From Mollicutes bacterium (GTDB taxonomy: Bacteria; Bacillota_I; Bacilli_A; Izemoplasmatales; Izemoplasmataceae), in NCBI GenBank assembly GCA_003554025.1, contig PWFC01000074.1, positions 1 to 64,000 of the forward strand: 64,000 nucleotides of DNA, given 5' to 3'. Position numbers and translations under genes: made by a program. Below are positions 9,307-15,643 of the stretch, piece by piece. Under the pieces are notes generated by a model. It made no database searches, was not told where the DNA came from, and saw nothing but the letters and a program-made list of their open reading frames with translations. Within the stretch, counting starts at the first letter, position 1. Every line of letters starts with the position of its first letter.

Positions 9307-9810
9307 TTAGACATCAAGGCGCTTAGTGTCCAGCGTTTCATGCGTCAAAGCGTTCTTCCATGTTGCCAAAACGGCGTCGTTTTGAAACTCCAAAAGCAAA
9401 TAGGTATCGGGGTGTTCGCCCCTTCCTTGGGACAAGGACCCGGGATTGAGCACGTAACGGTCGGCGATTTTTTGGATGTGAGGAACGTGCGTATGCCCAT
9501 GCAAGGCGAGGACGCTTTCGGATTCCAACATCCTGTAATAAAGCTTGTCGTAACCCGATTTCACCCGGTAGCGGTGACCGTGCGTCAGAAGCAAATTCCT
9601 ACCCTCTACGTTCATCACATGCTCATAGGTGAAGCCGGCGTCAAAGGGGTAGTTCCCTTTGATGGCGATGATGTCGTATTTTTGCAAGAGTTTGTGCTTG
9701 AGTTCGGAATCGCCCAAACTGATGATGAAATCGGCGGTATCGTAGTGTTCGACGATATCGGTGAACCGTTGTTTATGGCCGTGGATATCGCTCATAATCA
9801 GCAACTGCAT
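9307..9810 (-). CDS. yfcE: YfcE/MJ0936-type metallophosphoesterase
   Basis: A 167-residue single-domain phosphodiesterase. The metal-binding motifs run in the expected order: SDIHGH (residues 7-12), GDSE, GNYPFD, THGH, and HGHTH near residue 104. Family members cleave phosphodiesters with Mn or Ni; the natural substrate is unknown. In Bacillus the homologue ysnB directly follows rdgB (ysnA). Here three genes separate them, but all lie on one strand and this gene follows the ABC ATPase by 2 bases. The ATG at 9810 has AGGAGG 8 bases upstream. Confidence 0.93.
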   Translation of the reverse strand: MQLLIMSDIHGHKQRFTDIVEHYDTADFIISLGDSELKHKLLQKYDIIAIKGNYPFDAGFTYEHVMNVEGRNLLLTHGHRYRVKSGYDKLYYRMLESESVLALHGHTHVPHIQKIADRYVLNPGSLSQGRGEHPDTYLLLEFQNDAVLATWKNALTHETLDTKRLDV

Positions 9811-9812
9811 GG

Positions 9813-10520
9813 TTATCCTCCTTGTTTGTTCTCCGGGACGACGTCCAACGAGATGGTTCCGTCTTTGAGTTCGATGATGCGGTCGGCTTTTTGCGCCACT
9901 TCTTGGTCGTGGGTAATGACCACAAAAGTGGTATGGTATTTTTGATTCAATTCTCTCAAAAGCGCGTAGATGTTATCCGTTGTCGCACTGTCAAGCGAAC
10001 CCGTGGGTTCATCGGCCAAGATGATTTCGGGACGGTTGATCAGCGCGCGGGCAATCGAAACCCTTTGTTGCTGACCTCCGGACATTTCGTTTGCGGGATT
10101 GTTTTTGACGTGTTCAAGTCCGGTCAAGCGGATGAGCTCTTCGGCGTACGCTTTCGCTTTTTCATCGACACGGCCGTGCGCAATTTTGTAGGGCATCAAT
10201 ATGTTTTCAAACGCCGAGAACTCCGGCAGAAGATAATGGTGCTGAAAGATAAACCCGATGGTCTTGTTGCGCAGCATCGCCAAGGCGTTTTTGCCCATGG
10301 AGTCGGTGCGTTTGCCCAGTATTTTCACCATGCCCTCGCTCGGCTGATCCAACGTGCCGACAATGTTTAAAAGCGTGCTTTTGCCGCTTCCGCTTTGTCC
10401 GATGATGGCGGTGAAGGAGCCTTTCTCAACGGAAAACGAAAGGCCATGCAACACTTCGGTCTTGACAGCCTTGCCGTACGTTTTTTTGACGTTTTCCAAT
10501 TCCAATGCGTATTCAGCCAT
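9813..10520 (-). CDS. ABC transporter ATPase, LolD/MacB type
   Basis: A 235-residue nucleotide-binding protein with Walker A GQSGSGKST near residue 40, Q-loop (FIFQHHYLLPEFSA), signature MSGGQQQR, Walker B IILADEPTG and H-loop VITHDQEVA. The region FQHHYLLPEF is typical of the LolD/MacB/FtsE-like subfamily, which powers extrusion or mechanotransmission rather than ordinary import. It overlaps the permease gene by 8 bases, so the two form one transporter. The substrate is unknown. The unusual partner is the cobalamin-binding protein two genes upstream in the same operon. Confidence 0.94.
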   Translation of the reverse strand: MAEYALELENVKKTYGKAVKTEVLHGLSFSVEKGSFTAIIGQSGSGKSTLLNIVGTLDQPSEGMVKILGKRTDSMGKNALAMLRNKTIGFIFQHHYLLPEFSAFENILMPYKIAHGRVDEKAKAYAEELIRLTGLEHVKNNPANEMSGGQQQRVSIARALINRPEIILADEPTGSLDSATTDNIYALLRELNQKYHTTFVVITHDQEVAQKADRIIELKDGTISLDVVPENKQGG

Positions 10521-11667
10521 TGCGAATCACCTCGATGACGTTCAATCTCGCGCTGCGGCGGGCGGGAATGATTGAAGCGATCAAGCTCGCACTCACCGCG
10601 ATGGTGGCGGATATGGCGATGAAAGAAGGATTGATAAACACATTCACTACGGGATCGCCGGCCGCATCCACCGCAAACACGGTGAACGAATACGCTAGAA
10701 AGAGTCCCAATAACACGCCCAATATTGCGCCCATCAAACCCAGAATGAAGCCTTGAGCCAAAAAGATCAGACTAGCCTTCCTGTCGGTGATGCCCATGGC
10801 TTTCAAAATGCCAAGCTGTTTCGACTTTTGCAATACGGTAATGGCCAAGACGCTGGCAATCCCGAGCACGACACTAACCATTACGAACACTTGAATCATG
10901 GCGCTTGATATGCTTTGCCCCTCAAGGCCGCTCAGCAAATCTTCATTGTCCGCCTGCCATTCGTTGACGCGAAGGCCGGGAAGCGCTTCTCGCATGGTTT
11001 CGGCCAAACTCGAGGAGGCGAACACATCGTTAAGCTGCATTTCGTAGGCGCTTATGCCTTCCGTGCCAAAAAACGATTGGACGCCGGATAGGGTGCCGAC
11101 CACCCATGTTTCATTGACTTGCGCCGCACCTAGGTCGAAACTTCCCACCACCGTTACGGTATAGGTTTCAAGGCGGGGCGGGCCCAAAAACACATCGATG
11201 GAATCGCCGACTTCTTTTTCCGCAATTTTTAACAACGAAACCCCCACGACGACCTCATGGTCGCCCTCAGGCAAACGGCCTTCTTTTAAGTTGCCGGAAA
11301 AATTGTAAAGCTCATCGGCGTCTTCATAATCAAACCCGCGAAGCAATATCGGTTCGTCGTTTTCCCCAAGCAACGTCGCAGGCCCTTCGACCATGCGGTT
11401 CACAACGCCTATGTCTTCATCGAAAGAGCGCAACGTTTCATACCGCTCTTCATCGTCTTCTAAAAACGTTCCCCTCTCTTCGGCGCGAACGGTGATTTGA
11501 GCGCGGTTTCCGATGGTCGAATCGATCAAATCGTTTTGCAAACCTTGAATCAAAGATCCAATGAAGACTTGCACACTGACGCCGACCGCTATGCCTACGG
11601 TAATTAGAACCGTCTGCAGCTTTGAAGCGCCCAAAAAGCGCGCGGCAATCTTTAAAGGAAGCATCAT
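10513..11667 (-). CDS. ABC transporter permease, FtsX/MacB type
   Basis: A 384-residue permease with the MacB/LolC topology: one membrane helix at about residues 18-40, a large extracytoplasmic domain (about 45-255, with no long hydrophobic run), then three C-terminal helices (about 262-290, 308-335, 350-375) including the conserved KSKQLGILKAMGI segment. One copy would dimerise with the ATPase at 9813. Its start codon overlaps the stop of the cobalamin-binding gene as ATGA, so translation is coupled. AAGGAGG precedes the ATG pair. Confidence 0.92.
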   Translation of the reverse strand: MMLPLKIAARFLGASKLQTVLITVGIAVGVSVQVFIGSLIQGLQNDLIDSTIGNRAQITVRAEERGTFLEDDEERYETLRSFDEDIGVVNRMVEGPATLLGENDEPILLRGFDYEDADELYNFSGNLKEGRLPEGDHEVVVGVSLLKIAEKEVGDSIDVFLGPPRLETYTVTVVGSFDLGAAQVNETWVVGTLSGVQSFFGTEGISAYEMQLNDVFASSSLAETMREALPGLRVNEWQADNEDLLSGLEGQSISSAMIQVFVMVSVVLGIASVLAITVLQKSKQLGILKAMGITDRKASLIFLAQGFILGLMGAILGVLLGLFLAYSFTVFAVDAAGDPVVNVFINPSFIAISATIAVSASLIASIIPARRSARLNVIEVIRNG

Positions 11668-12296
11668 AGCGCCTCCTTGTTGGCCATCGCGACGACGGAA
11701 TCGTAGCGGTCCAAAACGTAGGCCAAAGAATCCTCAAATTTATGGGCTTCTTTCTGAAAGCCTCTTCCGGCGCCGACAATGCGTACCTTGGAAAACTTAT
11801 TTTGGACATGCTCAATGATTCGGCGGGCCTCAAACAAATGGTAGGCGTTGGAAACGCTGATTACCAAAAAATCGACACGCAGCGCGCTCAATGCGTTGTC
11901 GATGGTTTGTAGCGGCGTGTTGGCGCCTAAGTATGTCGTTCGAAAGCCTTCCAATTCCAAGAAGTGGGCGCCAACGACCGCGCCCAAATCGTGGTATTCC
12001 ATCCTGGGGCATACAACGAGCGCATGCTTGGGATTGGCTGGCGTTTTCTTCTCTTTCAAGACATGCGAATACGTCATTTCAACGAGCGTACGAACGATGG
12101 AAGTCATTTGGTGTTCGATCCAAACGCAGGCGTAGTCTTCTTCTTCGCAATGGATGGCGTTGAGGATTTTGGCGAAGACATCCTCATAAAGCTCAACCAA
12201 AGGCAGCCCATCTTCAAGCGCGTCCAATACGATGCGGGCGGCTTTTTCTTTGTTGTTGTCGCGCAAAGCGGCCTCAAGCGATTTTGTCAAATCCAT
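11664..12296 (-). CDS. Free-standing cobalamin (B12)-binding domain protein
   Basis: A 210-residue protein. Residues 1-85 form a helical cap domain of the kind preceding B12-binding folds in methionine synthase and CarH/LitR. Residues 90-205 show the corrinoid Rossmann fold: E100-x-H102-x-x-G105, where His102 would be the lower axial ligand of cobalt, then TYLGANTP, an SVS segment (147-149) and a glycine turn GAGRGF (175-180). There is no DNA-binding HTH, unlike CarH, and no methyltransferase partner nearby. It is translationally coupled to the ABC permease. It may sense cobalamin or light, or carry a corrinoid for another enzyme; the sequence does not decide. Confidence 0.85.
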   Translation of the reverse strand: MDLTKSLEAALRDNNKEKAARIVLDALEDGLPLVELYEDVFAKILNAIHCEEEDYACVWIEHQMTSIVRTLVEMTYSHVLKEKKTPANPKHALVVCPRMEYHDLGAVVGAHFLELEGFRTTYLGANTPLQTIDNALSALRVDFLVISVSNAYHLFEARRIIEHVQNKFSKVRIVGAGRGFQKEAHKFEDSLAYVLDRYDSVVAMANKEAL

Positions 12297-12336
12297 ACAC
12301 GTTCCCTTTCATTAGGTGAAACATCCGAAGTTGTGA

Positions 12337-12918
12337 TCAAAGATTCCGCAAATAGGCGATCACTTTGTCCAAACAACGTTTGCGGTGCGATATGCGCTGT
12401 TTATGGTCGAACCCCAAACTCGCTAGCGTTTCCGAATGACCGACGGGAATGAAGACGGTGTCGTAGCCAAACCCTTCTCCGCCTTCGGCGGCGGTGTGGA
12501 TATACCCGGGCAAGGTACCTTCAAACGACACTTCTTTCCCGTCTTCCAGAAGCAAAACCATCACGGTGCGAAACATGGCGTGGCGATTGGTTTTGTCCGC
12601 CATCTTGTTTAAGAGAAGCTTGTTGTTGGCGTGGTCGTCGCCTTCGTCGGAAAAGCGCTTTGACTGGACTCCGGGCGCTTTTTTCAACGCTTCCACCTCT
12701 AAGCCGGAATCGTCGGCCAAAATCATCGAAGAAGTGTGCTTTCGAAGCGCCCGCGCTTTCAATCGTGCGTTTTCCAAAAACGTCGCACCGGTTTCCCTAG
12801 GCGCTTCATACTCCTCAAAATCGACGAGACTCAACACTTCAAAGCCGAGGGATTCAAGCGGCGGCGAGATTTCTTGCAACTTGTGCTCGTTTTGGCTGGC
12901 GAGGACTATTTTTTTCAT
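12337..12918 (-). CDS. rdgB: XTP/dITP diphosphatase (HAM1/RdgB)
   Basis: A 193-residue house-cleaning nucleotide pyrophosphatase that hydrolyses dITP and XTP so that they are not incorporated into DNA. The conserved motifs are present: LASQNEHKLQEI (5-16), ADDSGLEVEAL with the catalytic Asp near residue 68, GFGYDTVFIP and the C-terminal SHR. It heads the rdgB / B12-binding / ABC permease / ABC ATPase / phosphoesterase run. The ATG at 12918 follows GAGGTGAC. Confidence 0.95.
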   Translation of the reverse strand: MKKIVLASQNEHKLQEISPPLESLGFEVLSLVDFEEYEAPRETGATFLENARLKARALRKHTSSMILADDSGLEVEALKKAPGVQSKRFSDEGDDHANNKLLLNKMADKTNRHAMFRTVMVLLLEDGKEVSFEGTLPGYIHTAAEGGEGFGYDTVFIPVGHSETLASLGFDHKQRISHRKRCLDKVIAYLRNL

Positions 12919-13772: not shown

Positions 13773-14504
13773 ATGAAAATCAAAAAAAAGCCCTTGGACA
13801 AGCAAATATTGTTGACCTACGTCATATCATTGGTCGTGGTGTACGCTTTTCAGCTCACCGTCATGGTGATTTTTCCGCGCATATTTGAAGACGAAGCGTT
13901 GATGATCACCTTTTCCTCGCTAAGCAATCTCGCCTGGTATGCGGCGGTCACCGCCATCGTCGTCCATTTGGCCTACATCTATCTTTTCAAAAACCAGTGG
14001 ACCTACTTCAAAGAAAACCCGCGCCGCTCATGGGGATTGATCGCCTTGGCAATCGGGCTGATGTTCGCGGCCAACATGCTCACCTCTAGCATCTTTCAGC
14101 TTGCCGGACATGATACGACCGCAGAAAACCAAGCGGCCCTTGAAATGCTTTTAGGGGGCGCATGGCACGATATCCTCGCGCTTGTCTTGTTTGCCGGTTT
14201 TTTTGCGCCTGTCCTTGAAGAGTTGGTTTTTAGAAGAGGGCTTTATTCGCTCTTTTTCAAAAAATACGGGAACTTGGCCGCAATCTTGCTCAACAGCCTC
14301 GTTTTCGCCTTGCTTCATTTCCTAAACGATTTGGAGTTCGTCGTTCAAGACCCCATCCGCGTGTTAAACCTTTTTCCGTATCTGTCCTTAGGCATCATTT
14401 TGTCTTTCATATATTATTATTCGGGCAAAATGATTTTCGTCGTCATCTTCGCCCATATGATTTGGAACATTTTGCAGTTGACGCTCATGTTCACGGTCCT
14501 TTAA
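13773..14504 (+). CDS. CPBP family intramembrane metalloprotease
   Basis: A 243-residue integral membrane protein with about seven hydrophobic segments. The CPBP (Rce1-like, formerly Abi/CAAX) motifs are clear: EELVFRR near residue 150, FALLHF near residue 190 and a late His in FAHMIWN near residue 230, which together form the metal/glutamate active site in the membrane. Bacterial members process peptides or anti-sigma factors, or give bacteriocin self-immunity; nothing nearby identifies a substrate. Its 3' end overlaps the convergent ankyrin gene by 4 bases and no terminator is visible between them. Confidence 0.9.
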   Translation: MKIKKKPLDKQILLTYVISLVVVYAFQLTVMVIFPRIFEDEALMITFSSLSNLAWYAAVTAIVVHLAYIYLFKNQWTYFKENPRRSWGLIALAIGLMFAANMLTSSIFQLAGHDTTAENQAALEMLLGGAWHDILALVLFAGFFAPVLEELVFRRGLYSLFFKKYGNLAAILLNSLVFALLHFLNDLEFVVQDPIRVLNLFPYLSLGIILSFIYYYSGKMIFVVIFAHMIWNILQLTLMFTVL

Positions 14505-15643
14505 TGGAAGAACTGTTTTTGAACGCTTGCATCCGACGTTTTGAGAAGCCTTTTCGCAGGTTTGTCCAAAACGTCTTTTTTCTTGTCTTTCAACAGTTCA
14601 ATCGCTTTGAGATTCTTAAACAGGATGGCGTAGAAAATGGCGCTATGCCCGAACGCATCAATGTCAAAAGCGGAAACGCCACTCTCCAAAAGCGCTTTGA
14701 TAAGATCTATATCTCCATTTAAAAGCGCGTAAAAAAGCGGCTTGTTGTAGAAGCAATCTTTCTGGTCGATGCCTCTACGCATTTTAATCAGCGCTTCGGC
14801 TTCGTCATAACGCCCTTTTCGCAGCGCTTTGTGCAAAGGAAGGGACCCGAGATTCTCGCGAATTTTTGGGCGGTTTTCGAAACGGTAAAGCTGCATGGAA
14901 ACGTCGCCGGCTTCTTGCGCGTAAGCAAACGCGTCGTTTTGGAAACGATCCTGTTCGGAAGGCGAAAGCCCGTAAAAAAGAAGGTTGTCGACCATCGCGT
15001 TGTCGCTTCGTTTCGAAGCTTCGTGCAAAGGCGAAACGCCGTAGAGGTTTTTGATGTAGGGGGTGAGCTTTTCTTCAAACAGCCTTTTTTGCATCGGCAA
15101 CGTTCCATAGGCGGCCACCGCATGGTGCAACGTGTCTCGCTGCGCGGAAAAGGCAAATGGATTGGCTCCGGCGTCAAGCAGATATTCAAACACTTCGCGT
15201 TTTTTGCTGCGGACGGCATGGAAAGCGACAGAAAGGCCCTCTTTGTCGCGGATGGACAAATCGGCGCCCGCATTCAAAAGCGTCTCGACGGTCTTCAAAT
15301 CGCCTTTTCTTGCCGCAAACATCAAAGGCGTGATGCCTTTTTTGTTGCGGGCGTCGATTGCGGCGTCTTTTTGAAGAAGCGCAGAGACCATGTCCGCTTC
15401 TCCTATGTAGGCCGCCGCATGCAAAGGCGTGTCTTTGAAATGGTTTTCTTGATTCACGCTTAAACCGCGTTCTAGCAAATACGCAAAAACGCGGTGCACT
15501 TTTTGCCGGATTGCGTAAAACAACAAATTTTGACCGCGCGTGTCGCATGCGAACAAATCGAATTGTTCCAACGCGTCGAAATCCTCGCCTAACAAAGCGT
15601 CAAGCAGATTCTCGTCTAGATACTCGTTCGGTTCCACATTCAC
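14501..15643 (-). CDS. Ankyrin-repeat protein
   Basis: A 380-residue protein made almost wholly of ankyrin repeats: about nine units of 33 residues with the TPLHAAA / NxxGxTPLMxAA pattern, such as DTPLHAAAYIGEADMV and ITPLMFAARKGDLKTV. There is no signal peptide, membrane helix or enzymatic domain, so it is probably a cytoplasmic protein-binding scaffold. The start is likely GTG 15643, directly preceded by AAGGTG; GTG 15637 is an alternative. It stands alone between convergent CPBP and the HU gene's terminator. The repeats are degenerate in DNA sequence, so this is not a recent expansion. Confidence 0.9.
   Translation of the reverse strand: MNVEPNEYLDENLLDALLGEDFDALEQFDLFACDTRGQNLLFYAIRQKVHRVFAYLLERGLSVNQENHFKDTPLHAAAYIGEADMVSALLQKDAAIDARNKKGITPLMFAARKGDLKTVETLLNAGADLSIRDKEGLSVAFHAVRSKKREVFEYLLDAGANPFAFSAQRDTLHHAVAAYGTLPMQKRLFEEKLTPYIKNLYGVSPLHEASKRSDNAMVDNLLFYGLSPSEQDRFQNDAFAYAQEAGDVSMQLYRFENRPKIRENLGSLPLHKALRKGRYDEAEALIKMRRGIDQKDCFYNKPLFYALLNGDIDLIKALLESGVSAFDIDAFGHSAIFYAILFKNLKAIELLKDKKKDVLDKPAKRLLKTSDASVQKQFFH

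Follow-up and report, generated by a model that had tools for sequence, protein, structure and literature searches.

A predicted cobalamin-binding protein is genetically linked to a Lol-like type VII ATP-binding cassette system in a Mollicutes bacterium and its relatives

Introduction

What does a cobalamin-binding protein do when its gene overlaps that of a membrane permease? This question is raised by a 64,000-nucleotide stretch of DNA (hereafter, the window; contig PWFC01000074.1, positions 1 to 64,000, assembly GCA_003554025.1) from a Mollicutes bacterium of the Izemoplasmataceae, in which a stand-alone cobalamin (B12)-binding protein, an FtsX/MacB-superfamily permease, and an ATP-binding cassette (ABC) ATPase are encoded as a three-gene unit, referred to here as the trio. 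Cobalamin is known as an enzyme cofactor, a riboswitch ligand, and a photoreceptor chromophore, and type VII ABC complexes, such as MacB, LolCDE, and FtsEX, carry force through the membrane and expel or release their substrates at its outer side. Here, we report that linkage, co-occurrence, and co-loss strongly support a functional coupling of the B12 protein with the FtsX/MacB-type machine. The pairing suggests that what B12 switches here is a machine in the membrane, and neither a gene nor a metabolic enzyme. An earlier note, made from the sequence of the window alone, knew of no description of the combination; in the open-access literature, we likewise came across no type VII ABC system coupled to a B12 protein.

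Results

The trio is gained or lost as a unit

We identified 18 clear orthologues of the B12 protein in 41 related genomes, and in 18/18 cases the permease gene and then the ATPase gene lay behind it. In a survey of 395 genomes of the class, with the B12 protein counted at E values below 1e-45 and the permease at E values below 1e-80, the B12 protein was detected in 38 genomes, the permease in 38, and both in 37 (Fisher 1e-49, uncorrected for kinship). The conserved pair that the earlier note had proposed to search for is therefore present in at least 37 genomes, rather than in this one only. The exceptions are G294, whose B12 gene lies at a contig edge, and G098 (L118:6880-8227), in which a trio-type permease has no preceding B12 gene and the ATPase frame ends after 64 amino acids. 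The ATPase remnant adjoins a TnpB-like transposon open reading frame (ORF; named by eye) and the contig end, and no B12 gene of the trio was found elsewhere in G098; the locus is a decaying copy of the trio. Among 392 genomes drawn from the whole phylum, trio-type matches were confined to the class. A scan of genome contigs with the B12 protein returned a sole near relative, on PUOX01000025.1. Other phyla were covered through plasmid and viral collections: the plasmids yielded distant cobalamin proteins only, two of which were inspected and had no adjoining permease of the trio type, and viral contigs contained no relatives of the B12 protein.

The layout of the locus in the window is as follows, with domain calls on the window proteins made with Pfam and NCBIfam models:

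12337-12918, minus strand: rdgB (Ham1; PF01725, Ham1 187 bits), a flanking housekeeping gene outside the module
11664-12296, minus strand: stand-alone cobalamin-binding protein of 210 amino acids (PF02310, 44 bits against a cut-off of 32)
11664-11667, minus strand: ATGA stop/start overlap of the B12 and permease genes, read from the sequence
10513-11667, minus strand: LolC/E-like FtsX/MacB-superfamily permease (type VII ABC) of 384 amino acids, a single gene (FtsX 55 bits, MacB_PCD 43 bits)
10513-10520, minus strand: 8-base overlap of the permease and ATPase genes, read from the sequence
9813-10520, minus strand: LolD-like ABC ATPase of 235 amino acids (ABC_tran, 120 bits)
9307-9810, minus strand: yfcE phosphodiesterase (TIGR00040, YfcE 78 bits against a cut-off of 56), a flanking housekeeping gene outside the module

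The three-gene unit is thus where the earlier note had placed it, each gene is backed by Pfam or NCBIfam, and the ATGA overlap is accompanied by an AAGGAGG ribosome site within the end of the B12 gene, just 5' of the permease start. The order b12-permease-ATPase was constant in 35/35 extended relative loci (the window aside) from at least six families. The permease/ATPase spacing was -8 in 33/35 relatives, and the b12/permease spacing was -4 or -1 in 26/35, with some of the other values reflecting automatic start-codon choice. Despite this constant order, the flanks differed between families: in the window's family, mostly trkA-rdgB upstream and yfcE-nusB-xseA downstream; in a second family of the order, an MscS channel gene on one side and tRNA synthetase genes on the other; in a third, pgsA-recA ahead of the trio; and in a fourth, a HAAS-domain gene and an Hsp20 gene. 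The unit is therefore independent of its surroundings.

The reported insertion between rdgB and yfcE is right for the window's family. Among 24 trio-less genomes with rdgB, yfcE was directly adjacent in 15, one of which is G002, a member of the same genus with a gap of 99 bases. The gap was ~700 bases in 7 of the 24 and ~330 bases in 1. The closed junctions in many trio-less relatives indicate that the trio was gained or lost as a block. The distances of the B12 protein and the permease between genomes correlate (r 0.77), a value that lacks a species-tree control and is not used here as evidence.

Several further arrangements were noted around these genes. In the window, the minus-strand order is trkA, rdgB, B12 protein, permease, ATPase, yfcE, nusB, xseA (nusB and xseA named by eye), and a 380-amino-acid ankyrin-repeat-like protein (by eye) is encoded at 14501-15643 on the minus strand, in a genome of 1.5 Mb. 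The ~700-base rdgB-yfcE gaps of the trio-less loci L128, L131, L132, L134, L135, L137, and L138 raise the possibility that the junction accepts different genes. In G021 (L053:7281-8430), the trio permease lies in two frames with an apparent frameshift around residues 319-325, and the B12 gene and ATPase are intact. Finally, L119:4117-7227, L120:2408-5473, and L121:5208-8297 are related permease-ATPase-permease units, in which two different permeases flank one LolD-like ATPase; no B12 gene was found in them, and they may represent an older heterodimeric form.

The B12 protein retains the cobalamin ligand set and lacks part of the light signature

PF02310 is the sole Pfam match of the B12 protein, with no helix-turn-helix and no N-terminal MerR DNA-binding domain, as the earlier note had read from the sequence. 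The AlphaFold model (predicted local distance difference test score, pLDDT, 96) consists of a four-helix cap and a B12-binding Rossmann fold, and the top Foldseek matches were the cobalamin domains of CtMerR, photocobilins, and CarH. Neither the sequence nor the model contains a hydrophobic leader, and the protein is presumed to be cytoplasmic. We aligned 40 trio B12 proteins with 8 CarH-type paralogues of the same genomes. Glu61, His62, Glu100, and His102 (the cobalt-ligating histidine of the ExH motif), Gly124 and Pro128 (GxxxP), Ser147, and Gly177 were invariant (40/40), and nearly all are common to the CarH-type proteins. The corrinoid fold and ligand set predicted earlier are hence intact, and this set, which suits a His-on cobalamin, makes cobalamin binding likely as judged from the alignment.

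Other positions set the trio proteins apart. The CarH Trp131 position (position 52) is Trp in 0/40 trio proteins against 7/8 CarH-type paralogues, and Cys50 and Cys57 are present in 39/40, the exception being L088, the most divergent member. Cys50 aligns 1-2 residues ahead of the CarH Trp131 position, and Cys57, on the predicted helix that bears Glu61, precedes that residue by four positions. Arg69, on the Glu61 helix, is found in 40/40 trio proteins and is Gln in the CarH-type paralogues; Asn150 and Tyr152 are likewise present in 40/40 and absent or rare in the paralogues.

The earlier note had left open whether control would respond to cobalamin or to light. That the B12 protein senses light in the manner of CarH/AerR, so that photolysis of adenosylcobalamin (AdoCbl) or methylcobalamin (MeCbl) would change its state and light would switch the ABC machine, is an unlikely account. 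B12 photoreceptors are the nearest folds, and the trio proteins conserve EH, GxxxP, and the lower His. However, the Trp131 position is never Trp, and of the photoreceptor signature GxxW, EH, GxxH, GxxxP, which was derived experimentally (PMC11796333), the B12 protein has EH and GxxxP but neither GxxW nor GxxH. Moreover, the genome of the window encodes a separate protein with an intact W-x9-EH motif, and a congeneric metagenome-assembled genome is labelled B1Sed10, probably denoting sediment. Light control of the trio is therefore doubtful, while the linkage, co-occurrence, and co-loss described above speak strongly for the coupling half of the original proposal.

The permease and ATPase are relatives of the Lol families

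We next consider the membrane machine. The nearest NCBIfam model of the permease is lolCE (122.6 bits against a cut-off of 362.45), and the best model of the ATPase is LolD (257.5 bits, under the equivalog cut-off of 307.75); by these scores, both are relatives of the Lol families, not members. The top sequence relatives of the permease family in the PDB were LolF (126 bits), LolE, and LolC, and Foldseek with the predicted permease model (pLDDT 82) returned LolCDE at the top and MacB next, with HrtB lower down. An FtsX and MacB_PCD permease, a type VII fold, and a cognate ATPase together place the system in type VII, the MacB/FtsX superfamily (for such complexes, see the MacB review PMC5985334). 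In the label "FtsX/MacB-type" used earlier, the "MacB-type" half is better refined to LolC/E/LolF-like. Since there is a single permease gene, the permease presumably forms a homodimer. A search for LolA (PF03548) gave no match in the genome of the window, which is 92% complete, so that a Lol-type passage to an outer membrane finds no support here. We also looked for a docking site on the permease through trio-specific conservation; the residues found were mostly transmembrane and uninformative.

Cobalamin use in trio-bearing genomes

Nearly all trio-bearing genomes encode a cobalamin adenosyltransferase. The trio was found in 0/11 relatives without another B12-domain protein and in 26/50 of the others (Fisher p ~0.0015, uncorrected for kinship), and the 11 genomes stem from two genera only. 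The genome of the window itself contains a separate B12 sensor that keeps W-x9-EH, with a GGDEF gene behind its own; these organisms therefore probably employ split pairs of sensor and output protein. The genome contigs C23 and C25 (L055 and L056) carry two diverged copies of one cluster, reflecting either a strain mixture or a duplication, with a CarH-like sensor with intact W-x9-EH, a GGDEF protein, and three ORFs named by eye: a small acylphosphatase-like ORF, a radical S-adenosylmethionine (SAM)-like ORF, and a MEMO/AmmeMemoRadiSam-like ORF. In G147 (L100:5858-10908), the trio adjoins a B12/GGDEF sensor pair, and in G346 (L108:5842-10053) a seven-transmembrane (7TM)-GGDEF gene, hinting at a link with cyclic di-GMP in that family.

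These data bear on an improbable alternative, namely that the unit handles corrinoids. The cargo that the machine would release or take up would be a cobamide or, by the example of HrtBA and heme, a tetrapyrrole, which the B12 protein would pass on in the cytoplasm. The heme exporter HrtBA also belongs to the type VII permeases and is among the Foldseek matches, and the trio is confined to relatives with other B12-domain proteins. On the other hand, about half of the B12-using relatives have no trio, the best match of the permease is LolC/E and not HrtB, and B12 uptake and salvage genes are absent among the annotated neighbours. Near the unit, no cobalamin riboswitch or other RNA was found at 12 loci, two tRNAs excepted. 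The hydrophilic nature of cobalamin counts against this alternative as well. The trio was also considered as a stand-in for the BtuC/FecCD importer, but no exclusive pattern emerged.

Discussion

Gene order, linkage, co-occurrence, co-loss, fold, and retained ligand residues of the trio have been computed here. On this basis, we give even odds to the reading in which the three genes encode one type VII ABC machine under the control of a cobalamin sensor in the cytoplasm, with a cobalamin-state or redox signal likelier than light. In the specific form of this reading, to which we assign somewhat less than an even chance, the B12 protein is a regulatory subunit dedicated to the ABC complex, and the chemical state of cobalamin gates ATP-driven extrusion through a ligand switch that is capped by cysteine and non-photochemical. 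This would be a new kind of regulated membrane machine, with post-translational B12 signalling that bypasses riboswitches and transcription factors.

In this mechanism, the permease, as a probable homodimer, and the LolD-like ATPase would form a type VII ABC complex that spends ATP on pulling or extruding a substrate at the outer face of the membrane. As a first guess from the relationship to LolCDE, this substrate would be a lipid, lipoprotein, or amphiphile. The B12 protein would be the cytoplasmic regulatory partner, holding cobalamin through His102 beneath the four-helix cap; translated just ahead of the permease, it would be in a good position for binding to the ATPase or to the coupling helix. 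A change in the cobalamin (bound or free, alkylated or not, or in cobalt oxidation state) would alter the cap, and ATPase activity would thereby be permitted or blocked. The conformational change of CarH depends on a redox-linked switch to His132 as the upper ligand (PMC10442372), and purely by analogy a conserved cysteine could replace His132 in that role. Because Trp131 and His132 of CarH are missing and two conserved cysteines lie nearby, photolysis of AdoCbl is less likely than a switch by redox or a thiol ligand at the upper face of the cobalt.

Several points weigh against this mechanism. The Cys pair is missing in L088, and it is from an alignment that the cysteines are placed above the cobalt. 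The permease and ATPase carry no additional domain that would mark a docking site, and the trio-specific conserved residues of the permease are mainly transmembrane. Cobalamin binding, sensing, physical contact, regulation, switch chemistry, and substrate are all matters that we infer.

The components of the trio have counterparts in known systems, from which each also differs. CarH/LitR, CtMerR, and photocobilins (PDB 5C8A, 8JBS, 8J2W), the best fold and sequence relatives of the trio B12 protein, share its four-helix cap, B12 Rossmann fold, EH, ExH lower ligand, and GxxxP, but the trio protein has no DNA-binding, GGDEF, or bilin domain; unlike CarH, it lacks Trp131 (40/40), has Cys50/Cys57 nearby, and is partnered with a membrane machine. 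PpaA/AerR is similarly a B12-binding protein without a DNA-binding domain that is co-encoded with its partner, as the trio protein presumably is, and AerR, which has no DNA-binding activity, acts on the co-transcribed CrtJ (PMC9144470). However, the partner CrtJ/PpsR is a transcription factor, whereas the trio neighbour is an ABC permease at all loci inspected, and AerR retains the protecting Trp. LolCDE/LolF resemble the trio in permease fold and sequence and in the LolD-like ATPase, but the trio has one permease gene in place of LolC and LolE, scores far under the equivalog cut-offs, has no LolA found, and adds the B12 protein. In MlaFEDB, an ABC complex is under a small cytoplasmic protein, MlaB, that regulates the ATPase MlaF (PMC7367683), which is the control proposed for the trio; MlaB is nevertheless a STAS domain and not a cofactor sensor, and the Mla permease is of another ABC type. 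The B12 sensor/GGDEF pair of the same genomes, also present in Ilyobacter, has the same sensor fold and an output protein next door, but that sensor is larger (316-362 amino acids) with an intact W-x9-EH, and its output is a diguanylate cyclase. Finally, corrinoid carriers of the MtaC/MttC type differ from the trio, which has no cognate methyltransferase among its annotated neighbours and has housekeeping genes as recurrent flanks.

Further alternatives have still smaller chances. The B12 domain may no longer bind cobalamin and serve only as a protein-protein scaffold of the ABC complex; B12-independent relatives of CarH do exist (CarA, PMC9304148; class II LitR, PMC9758184), but the invariance of the cobalamin-contact motif residues (40/40) and the confinement of the trio to B12-using relatives make this quite improbable. 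It is very unlikely that the B12 protein carries methyl or alkyl groups on a corrinoid to modify a substrate or the transporter chemically, the cysteines being the acceptors. Corrinoid carrier proteins have the same fold (7xcn, 3ezx), and the conserved thiols would lie near the expected upper cobalt face, but methyltransferase and radical-SAM genes are absent among the annotated neighbours, the motif is ExHxxG and not DxHxxG, and CarH-type sequences outscore the carriers, with NCBIfam pyl_corrinoid giving only 23 bits against a cut-off of 215.3. The earlier note, too, had seen no corrinoid methyltransferase nearby, and we found none at the locus. Unrelated genes can share bacterial operons, but a mere operon of genes with unrelated functions, already disfavoured, has very little chance given an order that is constant while every flank differs, 37/38 co-occurrence, joint absence, and clean junctions.

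Returning to the machine set by a cobalamin sensor, the idea is open to direct tests through invariant His102 and Arg69 and the Cys50/Cys57 pair. If it is true, direct control of membrane extrusion would join the known roles of cobalamin, and the type VII ABC family, for which control from the cytoplasm is little understood, would gain a built-in sensor that can be assayed by color and ATPase rate. The B12 subunit could then be used to switch membrane processes, with cobalamin or redox as the gate.

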